Shown piece after piece: positions 5,291 through 26,211 of a stretch of 27,054 nucleotides of DNA. Origin of the DNA: a virus; IMG/VR virus record IMGVR_UViG_3300015198_000007, positions 1-27,054 of that record, one strand, 5' to 3'. The position numbers were made by a program, and so were the translations under genes. Every line of letters starts with the position of its first letter. The first letter of the stretch is position 1. Under the pieces are notes generated by a model. The model searched no databases. It saw nothing but the letters and a program-made list of their open reading frames with translations, and was not told the origin of the DNA.

Positions 5291-6058
5291 TTACTCCACC
5301 GTGATGAGCTTGGCGACGGCGAACGCGGACCCGGAACCGTCGTCGAGACCCTCGAAGTCGATGTCGGTCATGCTGAAGTCGTTGTTCTTGAAGACCATCG
5401 CCAACTTGGGGATGACGATCGCCGAGAGCCGCGCGCCGTACACCTTGCCGGAGTTCGGGCCGGTGTCGTTGAAGAGATCGAGGATGTAGGTCGTCGAGAG
5501 CCCCATCAGCGGGTTGCCGAGAGAGATCGTCTTGCCCACGGCGGGCACAGTCTTCAGGTAGGTGATCTTGACCGAGATGCCCGACACGTTGTCGGCCGCG
5601 GCGAAGAGGTACGTCCCGCTCGCGACGGTCACGCTGTACTGGCCGGCGATAGGCGAGCTCGGGACCTGCTTGAAGGACACGCCGGTCGCCGCATTCGCCA
5701 CGCCCACGTCCTCGACGAAGGTGGCGCCGCCCGCGACGACGATCTGAAACGGCGTGGTCGGGATCGCGATGACCGGGTCGGTGACCTCCACCGTCTCGCC
5801 TGCCGCGGTGGTCGAGCCCACCAGCGCAGCGCCGAGAACCGAGCCGCGGATCTGGCCGCTCTTCGCCTTGCCGGTAAGCTTGGCCTCGGCGTCAGCTGCA
5901 GCGACAGGAAACTGTCGATTGCCGTAGAGCATCTTTTTGGTCGACGAGTAGTCGATCTGCACGTCCTGCAGCGTGCCGATGACGATCGGGGAAGTATCCG
6001 CCGCAGTGCTGGGCGGGAGAAGCGCGAGATTGCCAACGCCGAAATTGAATTGCGCCAC
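5291..6058 (-). CDS. Major tail tube protein with inserted Ig-like domain
   Basis: This 255-residue protein starts at GTG 6058 with a strong AAGGAGG six bases upstream. The flanking parts (residues 1-95 and 170-255) read as a tube protein: an N-terminal strand region with TLQDVQIDYSST, and a C-terminal part with AIVIPKLAMVFKNNDFSMTD. The gene directly precedes the gpG/gpGT pair, the standard tail-tube place. Residues about 98-169 form a separate module (PFQIVVAGGATFVEDVGV, IAGQYSVTVASGTYLFAAAD) that also occurs in the head-tail connector of this phage. Such modules usually decorate the outside of the tube. The protein has no cysteine. The function is supported mainly by position and build. 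Confidence 0.82.
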   Translation of the reverse strand: MAQFNFGVGNLALLPPSTAADTSPIVIGTLQDVQIDYSSTKKMLYGNRQFPVAAADAEAKLTGKAKSGQIRGSVLGAALVGSTTAAGETVEVTDPVIAIPTTPFQIVVAGGATFVEDVGVANAATGVSFKQVPSSPIAGQYSVTVASGTYLFAAADNVSGISVKITYLKTVPAVGKTISLGNPLMGLSTTYILDLFNDTGPNSGKVYGARLSAIVIPKLAMVFKNNDFSMTDIDFEGLDDGSGSAFAVAKLITVE

Positions 6059-6169: not shown

Positions 6170-6679
6170 CTAGTTACAGACCCAGATGCCGTTCAAGCGC
6201 TTTGCGAAGGCGCCCGTACCGGCACCAGCGCACGGATTCGCGATGGTGCAGTCGGAGCAGTAGGCAATCGTCCCGTTCGCGGGAGCGCCAATGGATGCGA
6301 AGACGATCGGGGCCAGCGTGATCTTGCCAGAGGTGAGCGTGCCGGAGATGGTCGCGGAGCTTCCAGCAAAGGGCACCCATGCGTTGCTGCTACAGACCTT
6401 GAGTGCGAGCGATGTCGTGTCCCACGCCAGGGCGCTGTCCGGGCATGTGACAGGCAGCGCGGCGGTTGTGTAGGCGCAAAGGGAGTGCTGGTGATCTGCA
6501 CGAGCAACAGCCACGCTGGATCCCTCGACGAGAGTGCCGCCGGGGCAGACTGGGGTCGCCGTTCGGATCTGGTCGGTGCCCATGCCCCTGGTCGCAGCCA
6601 GGAGGAAAACGGCAGCGCCCAGGAGCAGCCCGAGGGACGCTCGGCGATTGGCGCGCTTGATGTCGGAATCAGAAGGCAT
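6170..6679 (-). CDS. Membrane-anchored or exported Cys-rich tail-fibre-like protein
   Basis: This 169-residue protein starts at ATG 6679 and overlaps the preceding gene by 11 bases. Residues 8-31 (KRANRRASLGLLLGAAVFLL) form a basic stretch followed by a hydrophobic helix, fitting a signal peptide or N-terminal anchor; the RRAS context is loosely twin-arginine-like. The rest has eight cysteines, several in close sets (YCSDCTIANPC). The C-terminus (APANGTIAYCSDC, GTGAFAKRLNGIWVCN) is of a type found at the ends of phage fibre-like proteins. It is the last gene of the accessory block; a 111-base gap follows before the tail tube gene. Location in the envelope is inferred from the N-terminus and cysteines. 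No enzyme motif was seen. Confidence 0.68.
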   Translation of the reverse strand: MPSDSDIKRANRRASLGLLLGAAVFLLAATRGMGTDQIRTATPVCPGGTLVEGSSVAVARADHQHSLCAYTTAALPVTCPDSALAWDTTSLALKVCSSNAWVPFAGSSATISGTLTSGKITLAPIVFASIGAPANGTIAYCSDCTIANPCAGAGTGAFAKRLNGIWVCN

Positions 6680-7241
6680 AGAAGGACACCACCTTGTCTC
6701 CTGCGAGGAGCGGCGCAGTCATGGTCACGCTCGGGCTGCCCGGGGTGAGCGTGAACCCGAGTTCCAGGTTGCCGTTTCGGAAGAGCTGCATCGACCCGGC
6801 GAGCGGGATGTGCATGAGCGCGAGGATGGTCTCGCCGCCGACCGCGTTGGAGACCACGATCTCTGCGTTGACCTGCGTCACGACGCCGACCACGATGGGC
6901 ACAGACGGATTGACGACGGTGATGCCGCTGACGCCGAGTGTGCCGATCCATTTCTGCACGTCGCCGCCCGTGGTCAGCCAGACCTCGGCGTAGTAGACGC
7001 CCGGCACGGTCAGGTCGGTGGACAGCAGGCCAAACACGGCTTGATTGGTCGGCGTGGTCGTGACGCCAGTGCGGATTGGGAAGAGCAGCGTCCTTCCGCT
7101 CGAGTCAGTGAAGACGTGCAGCGTGACAACGCTCGCGCTCACGTCGCGCGCGCTCCCGTCGTCGTCCCAGACGAAGGATTGCGCGACGTGCGGAGTCGTG
7201 CCCGCTACCACGTCGATGCGGTCGAAGGAAGGCGCGGCCAT
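6669..7241 (-). CDS. Beta-rich virion protein resembling baseplate upper protein N-domain
   Basis: This 190-residue protein starts at ATG 7241 after a GGAG. It has no signal peptide, unlike its neighbours on both sides. Residues 1-90 (FDRIDVVAGTTP, SASVVTLHVFTD, DLTVPGVYYAEVWLTTGG) follow the pattern of the BppU-type beta-sandwich that attaches receptor-binding parts to phage baseplates. Residues 115-190 hold a second strand-rich part (MQLFRNGNLELGFTLTPGSP, GDKVVSFYAF) of a kind common in phage tail proteins. It is probably an adaptor in a fibre or tip complex. The family match is by pattern only. Confidence 0.62.
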   Translation of the reverse strand: MAAPSFDRIDVVAGTTPHVAQSFVWDDDGSARDVSASVVTLHVFTDSSGRTLLFPIRTGVTTTPTNQAVFGLLSTDLTVPGVYYAEVWLTTGGDVQKWIGTLGVSGITVVNPSVPIVVGVVTQVNAEIVVSNAVGGETILALMHIPLAGSMQLFRNGNLELGFTLTPGSPSVTMTAPLLAGDKVVSFYAF

Positions 7242-7253
7242 TGGGCTCCGATC

Positions 7254-8333
7254 TCAGGTCTTGGATCTGATGGTTCCGGGTGCGCGACGGGAGGTGATGC
7301 CTCCAGGCGCACGCCGAGAGGTGAGCGTCTGCGTGACGTAGTGCGGGCTCACGGGGAGCGTGGTGGTCAGGCTGGCTGTTCCGGTGCTGCTCGCGGCTCC
7401 AGCGGCAGCGAGAGGGATGCCCGTGGCGAGGAGCGCCACCCCAGCCAGGGCGCCGGTGCCGCTCGCCGAGATGCCACTCCCCGAGCTCGTGGTGAGGGCC
7501 ACCGATGCGCCCAGAGCCGCAGCGCCGCTTGCTGCCAGCGGAATGCCGGTAGTCAGCGCCCCAGATCCGGCCAGGACATCGTTGCCTGCCGCGGAGAGAG
7601 TAAGGCCCGTCGATAGCAGCCAGACGCCTGACAAACCCACCGAGCCCGCCGCAGCCAGCGGAATGCCGGTGGTGAGCGCGCCGACGCCAGACGCCGCCCC
7701 TGTCCCGCTCGCCGAGATGGATCCAGCAGCGCCCGCAGTGAGAGCGGCGGCACCCGCCTCGCTTGCGACGCCAGATGCGGCAAGGGGGATCGCGGTGACA
7801 AGGACGCTGGTCGCCGAACCGATTGCAGCGCCGGACGCGGCCAGGACAACCGAGGTCGTAAGGCCGGCTGTCCCGCTGGCCTGCCCGGTGCCCGCTGAAG
7901 ACAACGGGACTGCGGTGGACAGCGCAGCGAGACCGAGACCCGTCCCCAACCCGCCGGACGACAAGGGCATCGCCGTCGACAGCGACACGACCCCAGAGTC
8001 CGAACCTGTACCGGCCGCGATCAGAGAAACCGAGAAAGCGGCGAGGCCGGAACTCGTGAAAGCACCAGATGCAGCGAGAGGGATTGCCGTCGCGAGAGCG
8101 CCGACGCCCGACCCGAATCCAGCTCCAGACATGGCGAGCGGGATCGCCGTGGTGAGCGCGGAGGCACCCGATTCTCCGCCAGACCCAGAGGCGACAACTC
8201 TGATGCTGGTGGTGAGCCCGGCCGTCCCCGTCGACCCCATCGAGCCGGAGGCAGACAGGGCTGCGCCAGATCCTCCGCTGGCGGATGCTATGGCTGCTAC
8301 GAATAGAGTTGAGCGGCGACGAAGGAAGGCCAT
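7254..8333 (-). CDS. Repeat protein with about fourteen 20-residue repeats, probable signal peptide
   Basis: This 359-residue protein starts at ATG 8333 behind GAGGTGAG. The N-terminus (MAFLRRRSTLFVAAIASASG) has a basic start and a hydrophobic core, so export is likely. Residues about 35-325 are tandem repeats of about 20 residues with the pattern ALTTxIPLAASGxxxxSGxx; two copies are 22 and one is 18. Composition is almost entirely Ala, Gly, Ser, Thr, Leu and Ile; no cysteine was seen. The C-terminus carries a doubled SRRAPG motif and a basic end (TIRSKT). The regular period suggests a stacked-strand or fibrous rod. Its place between an esterase and a baseplate-like protein suggests a surface or fibre role. 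No known enzyme or named family was recognised. Confidence 0.7.
   Translation of the reverse strand: MAFLRRRSTLFVAAIASASGGSGAALSASGSMGSTGTAGLTTSIRVVASGSGGESGASALTTAIPLAMSGAGFGSGVGALATAIPLAASGAFTSSGLAAFSVSLIAAGTGSDSGVVSLSTAMPLSSGGLGTGLGLAALSTAVPLSSAGTGQASGTAGLTTSVVLAASGAAIGSATSVLVTAIPLAASGVASEAGAAALTAGAAGSISASGTGAASGVGALTTGIPLAAAGSVGLSGVWLLSTGLTLSAAGNDVLAGSGALTTGIPLAASGAAALGASVALTTSSGSGISASGTGALAGVALLATGIPLAAAGAASSTGTASLTTTLPVSPHYVTQTLTSRRAPGGITSRRAPGTIRSKT
7336..8262 (-). repeat. Imperfect 60-bp tandem repeats coding the 20-residue repeats
   Basis: The repeat array of the 359-residue protein is visible at the DNA level. For example, the 30 bases at 7531-7560 and 7651-7680 differ at only a few positions and lie exactly 120 bases apart, two periods. 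Most copies have diverged in DNA while keeping the protein pattern, which suggests old duplication with selection on the protein. Confidence 0.75.
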
Positions 8334-8342
8334 CGTCTCACC

Positions 8343-9251
8343 TCAGAAGGAAGCAAAAAAGTTCCATGTGTCCTGGCCCCACGTCGCTGGCCGCGCGTGG
8401 CCGAGGCCGACGATGGGGCAATCGACCACACGAGAAGCGCACTGCGCGTATTCGCTGCAGACGCCGGTCGGGCTGCTCGCAGAGGAGCATTTGTTGAGCG
8501 CGCGGAACAGCTTGCTCGTGGTGACGAAGTCTGGCGCCGAATAGCCGCTATCTCCGCCGCTGGAATCCCATGTAAATCGGACGGCTGGGCTGGTCGTGGT
8601 GCAACTGCCGGAGGAGAAGTTCAGGAAGTCGCGGTAGTCGCTGCTCGCCCCCGGCTTGCTGATGAACTCGTCCGAGCAGCTCGCCACCGACACGGCGCGG
8701 ATCACGTTGCCACGAGCGCAGGAAAGGTCTGTGACTTGATCGCAGCCCCAGGAGAAACCTGCAGCGAACACCCGGTTGGTATCGGTGCAGTAGTGGCTCT
8801 GCACCCACGCGAGAAGCGAGTCAAACCACTTCACGTCACGTGCGGTGCTGCCATAGGCGTTTTTCGCTGCGGTCGTTGTAGCCGCGCCGTCCCAGCCGAC
8901 TCCGAAGGTCTGGTAGGCGATTCCCTGGGGCACGACAAAGATGGCGTTTGCCGCAGCACCGCTCGCGGTCGTGATGCCCCATGCCTCCGCTCCAGCGGAT
9001 GTGCCGCCCGCCTCGTGGAAAATAAAAACCACTGGGAACTTGGTGGTATTCACATAGCCAGCGGGAACCAGAAGATCGAAGCTGCGCGAGGTGGCGTCGC
9101 CGTCCGCCACGACCCCTGTCTGCGTGGTGGTGCCGGTGGCAGGAGGCGTGGTGCTGCACCCGCTCGAGGCGACCACAGCGACCGGCGTGTAAGCTGGATT
9201 GACCGACCGGACGCCGCCGAACTGCGCGAGAAGCAGGGCGAGAATCAGCAT
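8343..9251 (-). CDS. Putative secreted esterase, PHB-depolymerase/feruloyl-esterase (CE1-like) type
   Basis: This 302-residue alpha/beta-hydrolase starts at ATG 9251, overlapping the previous gene by 7 bases, with AGGAG upstream. Residues 1-16 (MLILALLLAQFGGVRS) look like a signal sequence but lack a clear basic start. PVVFIFHEAGGT at 73-84 fits the oxyanion-loop strand. GFSWG at 165-169 is the nucleophile elbow (Ser167). Asp229 or Asp234 may be the acid, and His285 in GLGHARP is the likely base, followed by a WNFF segment typical of this family's end. Ten cysteines suggest disulfides and an oxidising location. The family hydrolyses esters of polyhydroxyalkanoates or plant and microbial glycans; the substrate here is unknown. 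An esterase within a phage structural operon may deacetylate host surface polymer. Confidence 0.8.
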   Translation of the reverse strand: MLILALLLAQFGGVRSVNPAYTPVAVVASSGCSTTPPATGTTTQTGVVADGDATSRSFDLLVPAGYVNTTKFPVVFIFHEAGGTSAGAEAWGITTASGAAANAIFVVPQGIAYQTFGVGWDGAATTTAAKNAYGSTARDVKWFDSLLAWVQSHYCTDTNRVFAAGFSWGCDQVTDLSCARGNVIRAVSVASCSDEFISKPGASSDYRDFLNFSSGSCTTTSPAVRFTWDSSGGDSGYSAPDFVTTSKLFRALNKCSSASSPTGVCSEYAQCASRVVDCPIVGLGHARPATWGQDTWNFFASF

Positions 9252-10084
9252 GAGCGCTCCTCTTTCAGCCAGGCCCAGCGGTTGTCGTTCAGCGCGCCCG
9301 CCCCGCGGAGAGCTCGACGTGGAGCATTGCCGCCTGCGGGAGCAGCCACGTTGTTGGATCGCAGCTCGAGCGCGGCCTCGGTGACCTCGGATGCCCCGGT
9401 CCACGTCTCGGTGACATTCACCACGGACGCCGACGCGGCAGTGCCGTCGCCTGCATAAAATATGTCTCCGGTCTTGGCGCTGATGGTGGTCGTGGCGCAG
9501 ACTGGAGTTGAGGCAGACGAGCAGACGATGCGACCGGTGCCCGCCGTCCAGGTCAAGGTGGTACTAACGCTCTGATTCAGAAAGAGCGCTTTCACCACGG
9601 TGTTGTTCGTGTCTTGAGTCGTGATGCCAAGCGTGTTGGTAGTGACCTGCACAGCTGCAGATTGGCCGCTGGTGTTGAGGCCGTAGGCCGTGACGTTGCT
9701 ATATTCGAGAACCACCAGATACAGAAACGTGGTGGTCGCCCCGGTGCAGCCGACGTTGTTTGCGCAGACCTTGAACGAGGTGGCGGCGCTGGCACTGAGA
9801 GGAGAGGTGAACAGATAGGCTTTATTCGTGGCCACGGCGGCGGAGTTATCCACCACGACTTGTTGCGTATATGTATTCCCTGCGCTGTCCGACACAAAAA
9901 TCGGCACAGTGTCGATGGCCTCGACGGCCAGCACGATCGAGTTGCCCGCGGTGCTGGTGGTCGTGACCGTGACCGAGTTCGCTGCGACGGTCGAGATGCC
10001 GGCTCCGCTCGCCTTCACAAAGGTCGGGTTGAGCGCCCACGCCTGAGCGGAGACAAGCAGACAGATCAGGAGAATGCGCCTCAC
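9245..10084 (-). CDS. Exported beta-rich protein, function unknown
   Basis: This 279-residue protein starts at GTG 10084, overlapping the preceding TGA (GTGA). Residues 1-17 (VRRILLICLLVSAQAWA) are a convincing Sec signal peptide with an Ala-Trp-Ala cleavage motif before LNP. The mature part is Thr/Ser/Val-rich with strand alternation. It has cysteine pairs (KVCANNVGC, IVCSSASTPVC) and a final Cys. The last 35 residues turn basic (RRALRGAG, WLKEERSC) and overlap the esterase start. Strand-rich repeats of the form NSVTVTTTSTAGNSIVLAVEA resemble domains in phage and bacterial surface proteins, but I recognise no named family. Confidence 0.65.
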   Translation of the reverse strand: MRRILLICLLVSAQAWALNPTFVKASGAGISTVAANSVTVTTTSTAGNSIVLAVEAIDTVPIFVSDSAGNTYTQQVVVDNSAAVATNKAYLFTSPLSASAATSFKVCANNVGCTGATTTFLYLVVLEYSNVTAYGLNTSGQSAAVQVTTNTLGITTQDTNNTVVKALFLNQSVSTTLTWTAGTGRIVCSSASTPVCATTTISAKTGDIFYAGDGTAASASVVNVTETWTGASEVTEAALELRSNNVAAPAGGNAPRRALRGAGALNDNRWAWLKEERSC

Positions 10085-11394
10085 TGGAGTTGGACCGCCT
10101 GCGCCTCGCAAATAACGCTGGATGAGGAGGTGCCAGCTTGAATCGTCCAGTTGTTATTGACGGCGGTCTGCTTGAACGGGACCGAGAAGACCTCGCCCTC
10201 GCACGGCCCGATTGACGCTGGGCATACGATGGTCGAGCGCACAGTGCCCGCCGTCGCATCTCGAATAGAAATGGTGTTGGCGGTCGCGACAGTGTTGGAG
10301 CACTTGATATAGGTGAGGTCCAAGAACGTGCTGGCGATGGCTGCCAGCAGCGTCGTCTCGGCGACGGATGCGGTCAGGGTGACGGCAGCCTGGGAAACGA
10401 GCGACCGATCCACCTGTGGAGCAACGAAGAGGCGCCCGCGCCCATCGCCGTAGCGAGAGCAGACGCCGACGCCGGTAGTCGCGCGGAGGAATACCGAGGT
10501 TGAGTTGGTTACGGCCGCGTTCGCCCGAATGCGAGCGGCCTGCGAGCCTTGCGGGCACATGATGGTCTGCTTGCCGGTGGTGGTGTCGGCCGCGTAGGCG
10601 AGGCTGGTGCTGAGCAGGCAGGTGTTGTCGGACATCTTGGCGAGTTGCCAGATCCCGTTGCCCACCTGGCAGTCGCCGACCAGCGTCGAGGTGAACGTGG
10701 CATTGACCCACGATGCGCTCGCCGCCGACTGACCAGCCAGCGCGACCGACACGAACGATCCCGCTCCGCAGGCGTTGATATTGGCGTCGGAGCAGATCGC
10801 GGTGATCGAGGTCGGGCCTGCCACGGTATCGGCCGGCACATCGTCGGAAGCGCGAATGATCGGAATGCTCAATGCGGACGTCTTTTGGCCCAGCGAGATC
10901 ACCTGCCCATTGATCGACGCAATGTTGCCAGCTGGATTGGATGTCGCGCGCAGGGTCGCGGCAACCGATCCGCTCGTGAAGGCGGCGACGCGCACACGGA
11001 CATGCGTGGCTCCGTAGCAGCCCTGGGCGAGACGGATCGTCAGCGCGCCGTTGCTGGGGTTGGCGATCGACGTGAGCGAACTTGATCCGCTCTCCAAATA
11101 AGAGAGGCCGGTGCTCGAGGGCGTCCCAGTGAGCAGGTAGATGATGCCGCCATCGCTGCTGCAGTCGGCGACGATCGTCATCACGGGCGACGTGCTCGCG
11201 GTGAAGTTGACGACGGCCGATCTCTGCCCGGCCATGACGACGAGAGCGGTGCTGCCGGCTGCGCAGCTGAGCCCTGTCGCGCAAACCGCGTTCAGGGTAA
11301 CCACGGAGCCCGGCGTGTCGGGGGCAAGCACGGGCGTCACCGCAGCGAAGGCGACGGGCGCGAAAAAGAGGATCAGATAGGAAAGTCGCTTCAT
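10081..11394 (-). CDS. Exported Cys-rich protein with duplicated beta-domain
   Basis: This 437-residue protein starts at ATG 11394, overlapping the upstream TGA (ATGA). Residues 1-17 (MKRLSYLILFFAPVAFA) form a clear Sec signal peptide with Ala-Phe-Ala at the cleavage site. Two related domains follow, about 35-151 and 198-306. They share aligned cysteines (38/44 with 201/209, 78 with 242, 126 with 280), an AGQ(R/S)SA start and a (T/F)LRAT end. Residues 328-437 form a third strand-rich domain (SIRDATAGTVRSTIVCP, FKQTAVNNNWTIQAG) of a kind seen in phage virion surface proteins. Fourteen cysteines favour a disulfide-bonded product outside the cytoplasm. No catalytic motif was seen; a role as exported adhesin or virion decoration is a guess. 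Confidence 0.7.
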   Translation of the reverse strand: MKRLSYLILFFAPVAFAAVTPVLAPDTPGSVVTLNAVCATGLSCAAGSTALVVMAGQRSAVVNFTASTSPVMTIVADCSSDGGIIYLLTGTPSSTGLSYLESGSSSLTSIANPSNGALTIRLAQGCYGATHVRVRVAAFTSGSVAATLRATSNPAGNIASINGQVISLGQKTSALSIPIIRASDDVPADTVAGPTSITAICSDANINACGAGSFVSVALAGQSAASASWVNATFTSTLVGDCQVGNGIWQLAKMSDNTCLLSTSLAYAADTTTGKQTIMCPQGSQAARIRANAAVTNSTSVFLRATTGVGVCSRYGDGRGRLFVAPQVDRSLVSQAAVTLTASVAETTLLAAIASTFLDLTYIKCSNTVATANTISIRDATAGTVRSTIVCPASIGPCEGEVFSVPFKQTAVNNNWTIQAGTSSSSVICEAQAVQLQ

Positions 11395-11690
11395 CCTGAC
11401 GACTCCTCGACGTAGATTGTGGACGTGCCCGCAGCAAGGACGCAGTAGATGTCCACGCCAGGCCCGTAGGCGCGTTCCTCTGGGATGCCCGTCTGCATCG
11501 GGTAGCCAGTGGCGGACGTGACGCCGATCGGGCCGAGATAGGCGACGGCCGCCGGGTCGTTGACCAGTCCGCGCCAAAGCAAGCGCAAGGCGAGCGGCAC
11601 GCCAGCCGCACCGCTCCCCACCTTAGCCGCCGTGGTGGACAGCGCGATCTGCGCAGTCGCGATCGCCGTGTTGGCGTAGGGCGTGGTCAC
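11391..11690 (-). CDS. Small phage structural-type protein
   Basis: This 99-residue protein begins at GTG 11690, two bases after the preceding stop, with GGAG inside the end of that gene. It ends at TGA 11391, overlapping the next ATG. The sequence (AQIALSTTAAKV, YLGPIGVTSATGYPMQTG, YCVLAAGTSTIYVEES) fits a family of small beta-sandwich proteins found among phage structural genes. In these, a glycine-rich turn with VTSATG-type sequence is followed by a GxxIYxxxAAGxxxxxV strand pair. It has no signal peptide. It may be a decoration or fibre-associated subunit; the role is not established. Confidence 0.65.
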   Translation of the reverse strand: MTTPYANTAIATAQIALSTTAAKVGSGAAGVPLALRLLWRGLVNDPAAVAYLGPIGVTSATGYPMQTGIPEERAYGPGVDIYCVLAAGTSTIYVEESSG

Positions 11691-11692
11691 GG

Positions 11693-12346
11693 TTATTGCT
11701 CCGTGTATGCAAGCTGGCCGGCAGCGATGAACGGTGCGGCGTCGCCGTTGTTGAGGGTCTTCGTGAGCCCGGCGGGGAGCGCGACAAAGTCGAGCATGTT
11801 GCCGACGGTGAGCGCATCGAACTCGGCGGCGGCCCAGACGAGGGACGGGCCGCTGGTCGGCGCGCCGAAGGTGATCGCGTTGTTGTTGCTGGTCACGCCG
11901 CCGGTGCCGGTCGAGGCAACAGAGGTGCCTGCGCCTTGGGTGCCGGCCCAGTTGGCCAGCGAGGCCGCGTAGGAGATGCGCGCGTATCCGGTGTATGCCG
12001 CCTCCACCACCGCGCCGCCGACGCCTGCGCGCAGCGCCGAGTCCTGCTCGGTGAAGACGGCGGTGTTGTCGGTGATCGCCTCGTTGTTGGCACCGGGATA
12101 CAGCGACGCCTGAGCGGCGGCCGTGGTGCCGCCCGTGGTGCACTTGTAGAGGTGCGTTTTTCCGTCGTTCGCGGTCAGGCTGATCGTGTCGTTCGCCACG
12201 TAGGCGACCGAGTTCTGCCGCGGGCCCTTGGTGGTGGTGAGTAGCGCGATGAACGTGTTGACGAGCTGGGTGAACGTCTGGCCGCGACGCAGCCAATCGA
12301 CGCGGATCTTGTTCTGCTGGTAGTTCGTGACGCCGGACGCGGCCAT
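11693..12346 (-). CDS. Phage tail-fibre/structural family protein with inserted module
   Basis: This 217-residue protein starts at ATG 12346 with AAGGAG seven bases upstream. The N-terminal 40 residues (NKIRVDWLRRGQTF, FIALLTTT) and the part from about 110 to the end (SYAASLANWAGTQGAG, GTGGVTSNNNAITFGAPTSG, LTKTLNNGDAAPFIAAGQL) belong to a recurrent phage structural family. Residues about 43-105 appear to be an insert (YVANDTISL, HLYKCTTGGTTAAAQASLYP, ITDNTAVF) like the add-on modules of tail-tip proteins. It is the first gene of the accessory block and has no signal peptide. The family is probably virion-associated; its exact position in the particle is unknown. Confidence 0.68.
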   Translation of the reverse strand: MAASGVTNYQQNKIRVDWLRRGQTFTQLVNTFIALLTTTKGPRQNSVAYVANDTISLTANDGKTHLYKCTTGGTTAAAQASLYPGANNEAITDNTAVFTEQDSALRAGVGGAVVEAAYTGYARISYAASLANWAGTQGAGTSVASTGTGGVTSNNNAITFGAPTSGPSLVWAAAEFDALTVGNMLDFVALPAGLTKTLNNGDAAPFIAAGQLAYTEQ

Positions 12347-12412: not shown

Positions 12413-12862
12413 CTACTGGAGCGCGAGCATTTCAATCGAGAGGGAAGCGCCGGCCTGACCTTCGCCGAGGCCGTGGTGCAAAACCCAGTTGGCATGATGG
12501 CAGTAGCGGACCAGGCCGCCGAGAGTGGTCGTGATGTCGTCGAAGTTCTGCTCGCGAGGCTGCAGCTGGAGCGCGCCCTCGACGAGATCCATCAGCGCGA
12601 AGAGTTGCGTCTCGACGGTCAAGGCCATGTCGGCAGGCTCACGGACGTAGAGGATCGCCATCGCGTGCTGCGTCCAGCGCGGCGGCATTCCCGGGGCGCG
12701 CGCAGCCATGCCGGAGACCGCGACCACGGACAGGGCAGGCTGCTGCAGCGCCGCCAATTCGGAGACTCCAACGTAACGGCGATTCGTCGAGATCAACCCG
12801 GGCACCTGAAGGCGCAGGCGCGTCAGCAGCGCATCTTGTATCTGCTCTCGCTTGGCGCTCAT
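12413..12862 (-). CDS. Probable tail terminator / tail completion protein
   Basis: This 149-residue protein starts at ATG 12862, overlapping the previous TGA (ATGA), with GAGGCGAG upstream. Its opening (REQIQDALLTRLRLQVP) and the strand-helix pattern fit small neck or tail-terminator proteins, which follow the gp10-like protein and cap the tail before head joining. Sequence similarity to a named family is weak to my eye, so the call rests mainly on gene order: connector, gp10-like, this gene, then the tail genes. Confidence 0.65.
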   Translation of the reverse strand: MSAKREQIQDALLTRLRLQVPGLISTNRRYVGVSELAALQQPALSVVAVSGMAARAPGMPPRWTQHAMAILYVREPADMALTVETQLFALMDLVEGALQLQPREQNFDDITTTLGGLVRYCHHANWVLHHGLGEGQAGASLSIEMLALQ

Positions 12863-13320
12863 TGACTCGCCTCTTCCGCGGCTCCGTTTGCGGCAGTTGC
12901 GAGGTCCGCCTCGATCGTCTGGCGCATCGCAGACAGGGCGGGCCCGAGAAACGGGCGCGGCTGAATGCGAAACGAGCCGGTCGCCCGGAGCGCGTGCAGG
13001 GCGTGGAGCTTGGCCTTCTTTCCCCGGACGGCGTTGCGGTTGTGCGCGCCGCCGTGGTTGACGGTGCCATGCTCGAGGAAGAGAGCGGGAGACGGCGCCT
13101 TGATGGTGGCGCGGATCTCGGTCAGCGTCTCCGTGAATCTCACCGAGATCCCTGCGGCCATGGTGCCGGTCTTCACTGGAGCCGAGGCCCTGGCGCGGTC
13201 CCTGACTTGCTCGGCCAGGCCCGCGAGCGTCCGCCGCAGGCGCGCCCGGATGGTGTCGGCCGCGTTGTTGAACCGCTCGGCCACGCCATCGGTGGTCACG
13301 GTCCCGATGATCTCGATCAT
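12859..13320 (-). CDS. HK97 gp10-like neck / head-tail joining protein
   Basis: This 153-residue protein starts at ATG 13320, overlapping the connector stop (ATGA). Residues 15-50 (ERFNNAADTIRARLRRTLAG, then RDRARASAPVKTGTMAAGI) and the segment ALFLEHGTVNH followed by PRPFLGPAL are characteristic of the HK97 gp10 family. In that family an amphipathic N-terminal helix is followed by the APVKTG motif, a (E/Y)xGT strand and a P-R-PFL motif. These proteins sit at the junction between head and tail. Length and order agree with the family. An upstream in-frame extension exists but is a shadow of the connector gene. Confidence 0.85.
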   Translation of the reverse strand: MIEIIGTVTTDGVAERFNNAADTIRARLRRTLAGLAEQVRDRARASAPVKTGTMAAGISVRFTETLTEIRATIKAPSPALFLEHGTVNHGGAHNRNAVRGKKAKLHALHALRATGSFRIQPRPFLGPALSAMRQTIEADLATAANGAAEEASQ

Positions 13321-14201
13321 ACGTTGGGCCTGAGCCAATTCTGGATCACCGAGGCAGCGCTCGACGGGACCGCCCCGGTCTGGAGCATGACCGTCTCGCC
13401 ACCGATCGAGGTGCTCACATGGCCGATGCGCGTCCGGCTCCGGTAGGCGTAAGCCACCATATCGATCACTGCCTGCTCGACGTCGCCGGGGATGCAATCG
13501 TAGTTGATCAACATCGCCTGCCCCTGGTCGGCCGCGTTGAACGCGTAGAGGCCGGCCGTGCTCACGCTGTACTGCCCAACAGCGGGCGCGCTCGCCACCT
13601 TGACCAGCGCGGCCGAGTTGCTGACGCGCGTGACACTTCGGTCGCTGACGAGCGTGAGCGCCGGCAGGACGGTGTATGGGCTCGAGATCGGGACGGTGGT
13701 GGGCTCAGCGGGGACGTTCGCGCCAGCGTCATAGATGATGGAGACGTTCCCGATGCCGGCAGTGAACTGCACGCCGTCCGTAAGCTCCAGCCGCGCGTTC
13801 TCGACGATCACATAGCCGTCCGTGGTCAGCGCAGCGTTGGGATCACCGACAGCAAGCACGGGGCGAGGTGGAATCAGCGTGCCGTCGACCATCACTTGAG
13901 CGACGGAGACGATCGGCGAGTGCAGCATGTTGATGGCGTAGCCGCGGGAGCCGCTCAGACCATAGCCGCCGCTGCTCCACATGCCCGGCGCCGACCTTGA
14001 GCGGATGCGCTCGGACGTGCCGTCCAAGACTTCCGTGTAGGTCTGGCGCAGGACGTCGCGGTCGACCTCCTGAACGAACCGGGCCGACTGCGCGGTGATG
14101 AGGCGCGAGAGGAGCGCATCGTCGGCCGTGAAGGCGTTGGCCTGATCGAGGCTGAGCCAAGCATGCACGCTCGCAAGCGTGGTCAGATCGCCGATCGCCA
14201 T
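13317..14201 (-). CDS. Head-tail connector with inserted Ig-like domain
   Basis: This 294-residue protein starts at ATG 14201 behind GAGGTGAG. The first 60 residues (TLASVHAWLSL, ALLSRLITAQSARFVQEVDR) and the last 60 (CIPGDVEQAVIDMVAYAYRS, RTRIG) match HK97 gp6-like connectors, helical proteins that form the ring under the portal. The family is usually near 100-200 residues. The extra length comes from a middle strand-rich part (75-160) and a module at about 172-236 (SPYTVLPALTLVSD, AVGQYSVSTAGLYAFNAAD). The same module type is inserted in the tail tube protein of this phage. It is the first gene after a terminator-like hairpin. Confidence 0.82.
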   Translation of the reverse strand: MAIGDLTTLASVHAWLSLDQANAFTADDALLSRLITAQSARFVQEVDRDVLRQTYTEVLDGTSERIRSRSAPGMWSSGGYGLSGSRGYAINMLHSPIVSVAQVMVDGTLIPPRPVLAVGDPNAALTTDGYVIVENARLELTDGVQFTAGIGNVSIIYDAGANVPAEPTTVPISSPYTVLPALTLVSDRSVTRVSNSAALVKVASAPAVGQYSVSTAGLYAFNAADQGQAMLINYDCIPGDVEQAVIDMVAYAYRSRTRIGHVSTSIGGETVMLQTGAVPSSAASVIQNWLRPNV

Positions 14202-18983: not shown

Positions 18984-19727
18984 CTAGTTCACCGGCGTTA
19001 GCAGCAGGCTCGCCCGGTAGATCGAGGAGCCTGTTGCCGCGCCAATCGTGTTGACGCTCACCGACGTTGCAGACGGAACTACCAGGCGCCTGAACGTCAC
19101 CGGGTTGGGCGCGATGTTCGCCGCGGCCGAGACGATTAGGGTCGTCACCACCGACCCGCCGATCTTGACCTGCATGTTGTCGATGTCGGCCGAGGTCAGC
19201 GTGCCGGCCACGTTGGCCATGACCGTGATCTCGTAAGTGCCTGCACCGGGAGTTAGTGTGGCGATCACCGCTCCAGCCCCAGCGCTGCTCACCGACCCGA
19301 ATGCCGCCGTGGTCGAAAGGCCCTGTACCGGAGCACCCGGGGCCGCTGCGGCCGGCGTCACGGTCGGGTTGACCACAATGGTCACGTTCGCCAGGCCGCT
19401 CGTGTAGGAGGTCAGGGTCACGCACAGGAACTGCGCTCCGCCCGAGAGGATGGTCCACTGCCCGTTGGCGCTGGTGGAGCTCGCCGGCCCGGCTGTCCCG
19501 CCGATGGGCCACCCCGGAGCGGGGATGAAGGTGCTCGACGTCGCGGTCGAGAAGGCGATGCTTGCGACGTAGGTACCAGCCACTTCCACGGTCGCGCTCG
19601 GGCCGTTGGTCAACGACACCACGATCGAGCCCGGGGCGTTGCAGGCGGCCACCACGTTGAGGGGCGTCGAGGCGATGGCCGGCGCGGCCCCAAGCAGAAG
19701 CGCCAGCAGAAGCAGTGTTTTTCGCAT
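18984..19727 (-). CDS. Exported Ig-like protein between terminase and portal genes
   Basis: This 247-residue protein starts at ATG 19727, five bases after the preceding stop. The longer reading to 19868 is a shadow. Residues 1-19 (MRKTLLLLALLLGAAPAIA) are a textbook Sec signal peptide with an Ala-Ile-Ala cleavage site. Two strand-rich domains follow. Residues 25-120 (SATVEVAGTYVASIAFSTAT, GQWTILSGGAQFLCVTLTSY) resemble virion surface Ig-like domains. Residues 150-247 (VIATLTPGAGTYEITVMANV, SIYRASLLLTPVN) resemble another common phage capsid-associated domain. It has two cysteines. A signal peptide here is unexpected, because virion proteins assemble in the cytoplasm. It could act at the host surface or in the periplasm. 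Confidence 0.7.
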   Translation of the reverse strand: MRKTLLLLALLLGAAPAIASTPLNVVAACNAPGSIVVSLTNGPSATVEVAGTYVASIAFSTATSSTFIPAPGWPIGGTAGPASSTSANGQWTILSGGAQFLCVTLTSYTSGLANVTIVVNPTVTPAAAAPGAPVQGLSTTAAFGSVSSAGAGAVIATLTPGAGTYEITVMANVAGTLTSADIDNMQVKIGGSVVTTLIVSAAANIAPNPVTFRRLVVPSATSVSVNTIGAATGSSIYRASLLLTPVN

Positions 19728-25080: not shown

Positions 25081-26211
25081 CTACGCCCCCAGCAGACGTT
25101 GCGCTTGAGTCAGATCCGCCATCGCCGGGCCGGCGTAGCGGAAGGTGGCGCAGGGCCTCGACGAGAACGAGCTGGCGCCTTTCTCGACGTTGGCGACGCG
25201 CCGCACGGCCGTTGCTCGCGTCACGCCCTTGACACCAGGCTCGTGCCGCAACTGCCACCGCGGCGACTTGTCGAATGACCGAATCAGCGCCGGGTGCGCC
25301 GGGTAAGTGTGCAGAATACGGTCCGTCGCCTTGTACGCAGCGCCGATCTGGTCGACAAGTGCCATCGCCAGACCGCACCCCTGCCAATCGGGTAGCGTTA
25401 CGAGTCGCGAAACGCCCTTGATATTGGCGATCCGCGAGTGCGGCTTGTGGATGACCCCAGCAAAGGCCGCCAGTCGGCCGTTCGCATAAAGCGCGAAGCA
25501 ACGAGCTGCTTTCGTCATCTCGGCACTCAAATAATGAAACGGAGCGAAGACCCGCCAGACTTCATATGGGACCCGCCGGACCTCGCACTCGATGGACGGT
25601 CGCCCTTGAAGCAACCTCCGCTGGAACGTCTGGTCAGCCATGTCGACGATCCAGTCGGGCTGGAGCCAGTCGATCACATCGTAGTGGCATGTCACCGCAA
25701 CGAGCTTGCGCTCCTTGCGTCGGATGAACTTCTGCACCGAATGGCTGACGATCTTTGCCACCTGCCGGTCGACAAACGAGGTGAACTCGTCCACCACGAT
25801 CGGCGACGCATCACTGAGCAGCGATTGGGCCACGTCGACGCGGAATTTCTCGCCGTTGGACAGCACCGAATACGGCCGCAGCCAGGCCGGGATCGTATTG
25901 AACCCGACCGATTGGCAAATCTCGCTGATATCCTGAATCGACCGGCCCGGCGCCAGCTCGTCAACCACCGGCCTCGGCCCCCATGTCGATGCGGGCGGCT
26001 CGCCGAAGACGTGCTTCATCACCGTGGACTTTCCGCTCCCGCTGGGCCCAACGATCAACCCGACCGACCAATCCATCGACTCGATCGGCATGTCGAACTT
26101 CCAAGAGAGGTGGCACTTTTCCTGCGCCGGCACATCGAACATCGCGGACACTTGTCTGGTGCGCGCGGAGTGCTGGATGCTGCTCTCGATCTCGACAGAT
26201 ACCTTTGGCAT
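25081..26211 (-). CDS. ABC-type ATPase fused to acetyltransferase-like domain (COG2401 type)
   Basis: This 376-residue protein starts at ATG 26211, eleven bases after the ParB-like stop, with AGGGG upstream. The first 205 residues hold an ABC ATPase: Walker A GPSGSGKST at 55-63, signature LSNGE at 117-121, Walker B IVVDEF at 138-143 and H-loop His176. No membrane domain is present, so it is not a transporter by itself. The rest is GNAT-like: YLSAEMTKAARCFALYANGR, then VSRLVTLPDWQGCGLAMALV at 267-286 as a likely acetyl-CoA loop. This architecture (COG2401) is known but poorly understood, and is often near ParB-like and terminase genes on phages. Its function is unknown. Confidence 0.85.
   Translation of the reverse strand: MPKVSVEIESSIQHSARTRQVSAMFDVPAQEKCHLSWKFDMPIESMDWSVGLIVGPSGSGKSTVMKHVFGEPPASTWGPRPVVDELAPGRSIQDISEICQSVGFNTIPAWLRPYSVLSNGEKFRVDVAQSLLSDASPIVVDEFTSFVDRQVAKIVSHSVQKFIRRKERKLVAVTCHYDVIDWLQPDWIVDMADQTFQRRLLQGRPSIECEVRRVPYEVWRVFAPFHYLSAEMTKAARCFALYANGRLAAFAGVIHKPHSRIANIKGVSRLVTLPDWQGCGLAMALVDQIGAAYKATDRILHTYPAHPALIRSFDKSPRWQLRHEPGVKGVTRATAVRRVANVEKGASSFSSRPCATFRYAGPAMADLTQAQRLLGA

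Follow-up and report, generated by a model that had tools for sequence, protein, structure and literature searches.

A candidate module of exported proteins inserted between the head and tail genes of a siphovirus-type phage

Tailed phages are taken to assemble wholly in the cytoplasm. Why, then, would a run of genes within a phage structural operon encode proteins that carry signals for leaving it, and what might such proteins do? We address this question with a 27-kb linear virus record (IMG/VR IMGVR_UViG_3300015198_000007), all 27,054 nucleotides of which we call the window. Its minus-strand genes follow the usual siphovirus order: TerS, TerL, portal, protease, HK97-type capsid protein and head-tail adaptor, then an HK97 gp10-like gene, a tail terminator-like gene, the block of putatively exported proteins, a tail tube-like gene and the tape measure gene. 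A near-copy from IMG/VR sample 3300015204 is 99.98% identical over 18 kb. A betaproteobacterial host is likely, because the best relatives of the capsid protein in bacterial genomes belong to the Burkholderiales (Aquincola, 47%; Rhodoferax, 45%). Note that the window is a fragment of the virus genome, and the remaining tail fibres therefore lie outside our view.

The five ORFs that a first-pass annotation had assigned to an exported, cysteine-rich block are all present on the minus strand. Together with their neighbours and one further gene, they are as follows.

18984-19727, minus strand: further predicted exported protein, 247 aa (MRKTLLLLALLLGAAPAIA^S), between the terminase large subunit and portal genes
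12413-12862 and 12859-13320, minus strand: neck genes (tail terminator-like and HK97 gp10-like, respectively), upstream border of the block
11693-12346, minus strand: protein with a podophage GP4 fibre I (gp80) domain (PF23140, 51.4 bits, cut-off 27), no signal peptide
11391-11690, minus strand: small beta-rich-looking protein at the head end of the block, no signal peptide
10081-11394, minus strand: predicted exported protein, 437 aa, cut after AFA, 14 Cys, C-terminal jelly-roll at aa 288-437
9245-10084, minus strand: predicted exported protein, 279 aa, cut after AWA, 5 mature Cys, beta-rich by sequence
8343-9251, minus strand: predicted extracellular-type alpha/beta-hydrolase (feruloyl esterase / type 1 scl-PHA depolymerase kind), 10 Cys, hydrophobic N-terminus
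7254-8333, minus strand: low-complexity repeat protein (SGxxxxxxALTTxIPLAA-type), fibre-like, no Cys, signal peptide doubtful
6669-7241, minus strand: 190-aa protein within the block, without signal peptide or Cys by the ORF list and signal-peptide score; no database match found
6170-6679, minus strand: predicted exported or anchored protein, 169 aa, 8 Cys, C-terminal module YCSDCTIANPCAGAGTGAFAKRLNGIWVCN
5291-6058, minus strand: tail tube-like protein (phrog_8234), downstream border of the block

GC content by codon position supports the five ORFs as coding (third-position GC, 0.72-0.81). From 11690 to 6170, neighbouring genes overlap or sit no more than 12 nt apart, and no promoter- or terminator-like site was found on the minus strand across this interval, so that co-expression of the block with the structural genes is likely. 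Its position between the neck genes and the tail tube gene, and its tight packing, were thus described correctly by the first-pass annotation; that expression falls late is something we infer. The stretch from the tail terminator to the start of the tail tube gene measures 6.4 kb, and, to judge by sequence comparison, it is an insertion, since the corresponding interval in relatives is only about 1 kb long (adaptor and tail-tube matches lie ~1.1 kb apart in both L021 and L023). A PADLOC search of the block matched no defence system. The inserted nature of the stretch had been missed previously, as had the esterase identity of 8343-9251 and the sixth exported protein, 18984-19727.

Signal peptides were assessed with a purpose-written, rule-based score of the n-, h- and c-regions, with a strict threshold of ≥5.0. 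Among ORFs of the window, 3 of 18 reached this threshold, compared with 17 of 1441 same-strand ORFs around related capsid genes (binomial P = 1.2e-3), a background that itself includes false positives (the L077 match runs into a terminase frame). The excess is conservative because the automatic ORF picker skips 6170-6679 and others. An n-region, h-region, c-region and cleavage site were all found in 10081-11394 (MKRLSYLILFFAPVAFA^AVTP), 9245-10084 (VRRILLICLLVSAQAWA^LNP) and 18984-19727, the first two with the two Ala-X-Ala sites noticed earlier. The remaining N-termini are weaker or fail. That of 6170-6679 is a long hydrophobic segment, plausible as a signal peptide or an anchor. That of 8343-9251 (MLILALLLAQFGGVRS) carries no charge in its n-region and did not pass the score; the closest homologues of the protein in bacteria are secreted lipoproteins. 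That of 7254-8333 (RRRSTLFVAAIASA) gives a weak signal and passes straight into repeats. The earlier count of five genes with a signal peptide or hydrophobic start was therefore generous, comprising two clear cases, two weaker ones and a doubtful one. No lipobox with Cys at +1, of the Llp/Cor type, occurs in the scored N-termini of the window's predicted exported proteins. Good ribosome-binding sites precede the starts of 10081-11394 and 8343-9251. Export of the block's products during late infection is well supported as a prediction from these sequences.

Cysteine content agrees with what had been described: four of the block's proteins are rich in Cys (14 in 10081-11394, 6 in 9245-10084 of which 5 are mature, 10 in 8343-9251 and 8 in 6170-6679), and there are none in 7254-8333 or in the major capsid, tail tube and tape measure proteins. 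Among the cysteines of 10081-11394, Cys364 and Cys428 fall on two strands of the predicted jelly-roll. This domain (residues 288-437) matches proteins of a Manatee Spring phage and a Microcystis phage and recurs at 36 further viral loci, not counting the near-copy of the window. Nearly all homologues have no signal peptide; the four bearers are the window protein and those of L157, L164 and L192. Cysteines at both aligned positions were found only in the window, L157 and L164, that is, in three of four homologues with a signal peptide and in none of 30 without one (Fisher P = 7e-4, uncorrected for kinship and resting on three sequences). None of these 30 has even one of the two cysteines. In a tree of the domain, the window protein sits on a long branch and L157 groups with L158 and L182, which have no signal peptide (93/86), so that the Cys pair may have had one or several origins. 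Of the sequence evidence that these proteins would meet an oxidising compartment, this coupling of Cys pair and signal peptide is the strongest. The predicted fold matches phage cement proteins, Ena subunits, XepA, YomS and many other jelly-rolls, all with Z ~8; with so many unrelated jelly-rolls tied near this value, the matches single out no function. The jelly-roll model leaves room for the surface structure on the infected cell that had been proposed.

A second recurring element lies at the end of 6170-6679, whose last 45 residues share 71% identity with the C-terminus of a fibre-like protein, 1253 residues long, from the complete phage MW202444. That protein has a clear signal peptide, and its gene, the only large fibre-like gene of the phage, is placed after the tail hub. 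We found this YCSDC module at 19 viral loci. Among full-length carriers, including the window and MW202444, 8 of 18 pass the strict signal-peptide threshold, against ~1% of background ORFs. At least four tailspike- or fibre-like carriers (L138, L142, L143 and L144) have no signal peptide; the four module cysteines are present in them as well, and these cysteines may therefore bind metal instead. In bacterial chromosomes, P2-like tail clusters end with a looser form of the module, borne by proteins that have a signal peptide and 17 to 23 Cys; among 398 Pseudomonadota genomes, the module itself gave three weak matches only. That export would preclude a place on the virion is not established: fibre- or cement-like phage proteins that have no signal peptide contain these domains and modules too.

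The GTG start of 9245-10084 overlaps the stop of 10081-11394. Database searches returned no relative of this protein, and a likeness to signal peptide-bearing neighbours in L157 and L192 was non-significant (BLASTP E 4) and was dropped as evidence.

The protein encoded by 8343-9251 is a putative esterase of a secreted kind. Its triad, Ser167-Asp234-His285, with the nucleophile in a GxSxG motif, is invariant in an alignment with two Burkholderiales lipoprotein homologues; the triad rests on this alignment because the structure prediction is poor (pLDDT 31.5). The C-terminal cysteines are common to both homologues, so its Cys content is a trait of the secreted family. Matches were obtained to solved feruloyl esterases in the PDB (1.5e-10), to the NCBIfam extracellular type 1 scl-PHA depolymerase family (NF050058; 4.9e-13, 49.2 of 150 bits), to TIGR01840 (17.8 of 107.85 bits) and to PF00756 (14.2 of 22 bits). 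As these scores lie below the curated cut-offs, the protein is best called esterase-like and is not filed in any named family. No relatives were found in annotated phages, and a wider viral scan returned only the near-copy of the window. L017, a contig with a sheath-like gene that is otherwise unrelated to the window, carries the C-terminal half of the esterase at 96% protein and 89% DNA identity, and the dN/dS of 0.078 points to purifying selection that has kept the enzyme functional. In L017 the next gene after the esterase begins with MAFLRRRSTLF, as does 7254-8333; the fibre N-termini are 69% identical and the repeats 41% identical, and the L017 fibre has diverged and gained a BNR/sortilin-like stretch. 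Because the pair recurs in an otherwise unrelated, contractile-tailed phage, it evidently moves between unrelated phages.

Predicted exported proteins are also found in the late regions of phages with other gene orders. In the podovirus L157, whose gene order is of the T7 type, the genes for the capsid and a virion protein precede four ORFs in a row that start with a hydrophobic segment or a signal peptide, and tail tubular genes come next. L192 and L164 likewise have two or three signal-peptide ORFs in succession, followed in L164 by an endolysin gene. Loci anchored on the major capsid protein add further cases: L037, L079 and L081 encode signal-peptide proteins downstream of the capsid gene, as does L068, with two in tandem. 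In Bradyrhizobium phage ppBdUSDA122-1 such a protein is encoded between a tail protein and a tail fibre, and Acinetobacter phage 5W encodes a GDSL lipase with a hydrophobic N-terminus between the tail tube gene and the next large tail gene. In the openly accessible literature we found nothing on point about exported tailed-phage fibres, which is weak evidence of absence.

We tentatively propose that the stretch represents an accessory module which entered the operon between the head and the tail genes and is expressed together with both late in infection, and that its products work on the infected-cell envelope instead of within the virion assembly line. After Sec-dependent export they would fold under oxidising conditions, in the periplasm or outside, and form disulfides there. 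The esterase would hydrolyse an ester of a surface or exported polymer, and the fibre-like and cement-like proteins would bind the surface. The likeliest effect would be that the phage's own attachment sites are masked or removed, which would keep competitors out and progeny off the lysed host; this is the simplest reading because an ester-cleaving enzyme stands together with binding-type proteins. The first-pass annotation had suggested that the block is exported and acts outside the cytoplasm, perhaps by modifying host polymer. The former gains support from the tracking of Cys pair and signal peptide, from the secreted esterase family and from the exported proteins predicted elsewhere in late regions, and the latter fits the predicted esterase.

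Several other explanations have to be weighed. A tail role fits at least as well with one observation, namely that fibres with signal peptides close chromosomal P2-like tail clusters. The fibre-like and cement-like proteins might be virion appendages that travel via the periplasm: after export and disulfide bonding, they would be added to virions once lysis lets the contents of periplasm and cytoplasm mix. The Cys-rich fibre at the end of those clusters argues for this, as does the signal peptide on the sole large fibre-like gene of MW202444. So does the occurrence of the 10081-11394 domain and the YCSDC module in phage proteins without signal peptides, encoded at decoration or fibre gene positions, and the modelled domain fold resembles that of phage cement proteins. 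However, we know of no tailed-phage virion protein that assembles via the periplasm, and an esterase that digests surface polymer needs no place on a virion; we consider this explanation unlikely. A broader version, in which Sec-exported, disulfide-bonded fibre- or cement-like proteins would form an appendage layer on the infected cell or be added to virions at lysis, as an extracytoplasmic branch of assembly that chromosomal tail clusters have kept, seems to us doubtful, if somewhat less so.

It is less probable again that these are lysogenic-conversion or auxiliary genes serving the host with a secreted depolymerase and adhesins. The esterase does resemble extracellular PHA depolymerases and feruloyl esterases of Burkholderiales, but the genes are packed into the structural operon with no promoter or terminator of their own found, and lysogeny of the virus would have to be presumed. 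A shade more improbable still is that the hydrophobic N-termini are virion anchors or start-site errors on proteins that assemble in the cytoplasm. The poor signal peptides of 7254-8333 and 8343-9251 and the homologous modules that have none would suit this idea; it is at odds with the textbook signal peptides and AXA sites on 10081-11394, 9245-10084 and 18984-19727, with the Cys pair that follows the signal peptide across homologues, and with the ribosome-binding sites noted above. We regard as very improbable that the products are lysis helpers, exported beta-sandwich proteins that damage the envelope in the manner of XepA. XepA and YomS are among the structural matches (Z 8.1) and an endolysin follows the run in L164, but this Z value is common to many unrelated jelly-rolls, there is no sequence relation, and no recognised lysis gene adjoins the block in the window.

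If phages do recurrently make a late set of exported, disulfide-type proteins that have domains in common with fibre- and cement-like phage proteins, then either particle assembly would include a step outside the cytoplasm, or a dedicated programme would remodel the infected-cell surface. Both outcomes bear on the loss of progeny to debris and on the exclusion of competitors. Furthermore, exported esterases of this kind should not be labelled by default as auxiliary metabolic genes.

Masking of attachment sites, the reading we favour, has a parallel in the Llp-type lipoproteins of phage T5, which reportedly block the phage receptor on the infected cell. The likeness is one of proposed function only: Llp is one small lipoprotein, whereas the window encodes several fibre-like proteins without a lipobox. 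Ena subunits of Bacillus, whose N-terminal connector cysteines bond to neighbouring subunits, build disulfide-linked surface appendages, and the predicted domain of 10081-11394 resembles them as a jelly-roll of similar size (Z 8.3), by fold alone. The same kind of likeness holds for the phage cement proteins of KHP30 and KHP40 (E 7.6e-4, Z 8.2, tied with unrelated jelly-rolls); a PDB sequence search with the domain matched neither these, nor Ena, nor XepA and YomS. With secreted feruloyl esterases and type 1 scl-PHA depolymerases (8jh8; NF050058), the esterase shares the GxSxG motif, Asp, His and the C-terminal Cys pattern, but its gene is part of the structural operon of a phage and has a repeat-fibre gene as its partner. 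The podophage GP4 fibre I domain is found above the Pfam cut-off at the border of the block, in 11693-12346, and the exported genes themselves differ in having no such domain. XepA of the Bacillus subtilis prophage PBSX is exported while the phage develops and is missing from its particles (PMC6834076); it would be like the window's proteins in being an exported phage protein, and its beta-sandwich is among the structural matches. XepA, however, is part of a lytic cassette and its host is Gram-positive, whereas the window has several putatively exported genes set between those for head and tail.

Fibre proteins that are rich in cysteine and bear signal peptides, as called by our own n/h/c-region score, are encoded last in P2-like tail clusters at three bacterial chromosomal loci, where they carry 17 to 23 cysteines:

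L216, 4133-8104, fibre gene at the end of the tail cluster
L217, 4948-7695, fibre gene at the end of the tail cluster
L219, 6644-9010, fibre gene at the end of the tail cluster

The tail cluster of L217 and L219 may be a tailocin locus, because both share their flanking genes. Signal peptides were also called in a 1331-residue protein with 31 cysteines downstream of a capsid gene (L081, 7709-11704), and in a small protein (119 residues, five cysteines) of Microcystis phage Mwe-JY08, encoded upstream of the structural genes (L010, 11961-12320). In the complete phage MW202444.1, the signal-peptide fibre gene adjoins a gene for a sep15/selM-type redox domain (L220, 35906-36151), which is possibly a disulfide helper.

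Within the window, the head-tail adaptor (13317-14201) and the tail-tube protein (5291-6058) have a stretch of about 55 residues in common and both match phrog_8234; one domain is reused in two virion proteins. The gene at 25081-26211 (minus strand) fuses an acetyltransferase-like part to an ABC-type ATPase; it matches phage family phrog_11143 strongly (2e-99) and the defence model mad3 weakly.

The tail operon of Acinetobacter phage 5W includes a GDSL lipase with a hydrophobic N-terminus (L012, 11414-12124), which occupies a place comparable to that of the window esterase (8343-9251) but is of an unrelated esterase type.
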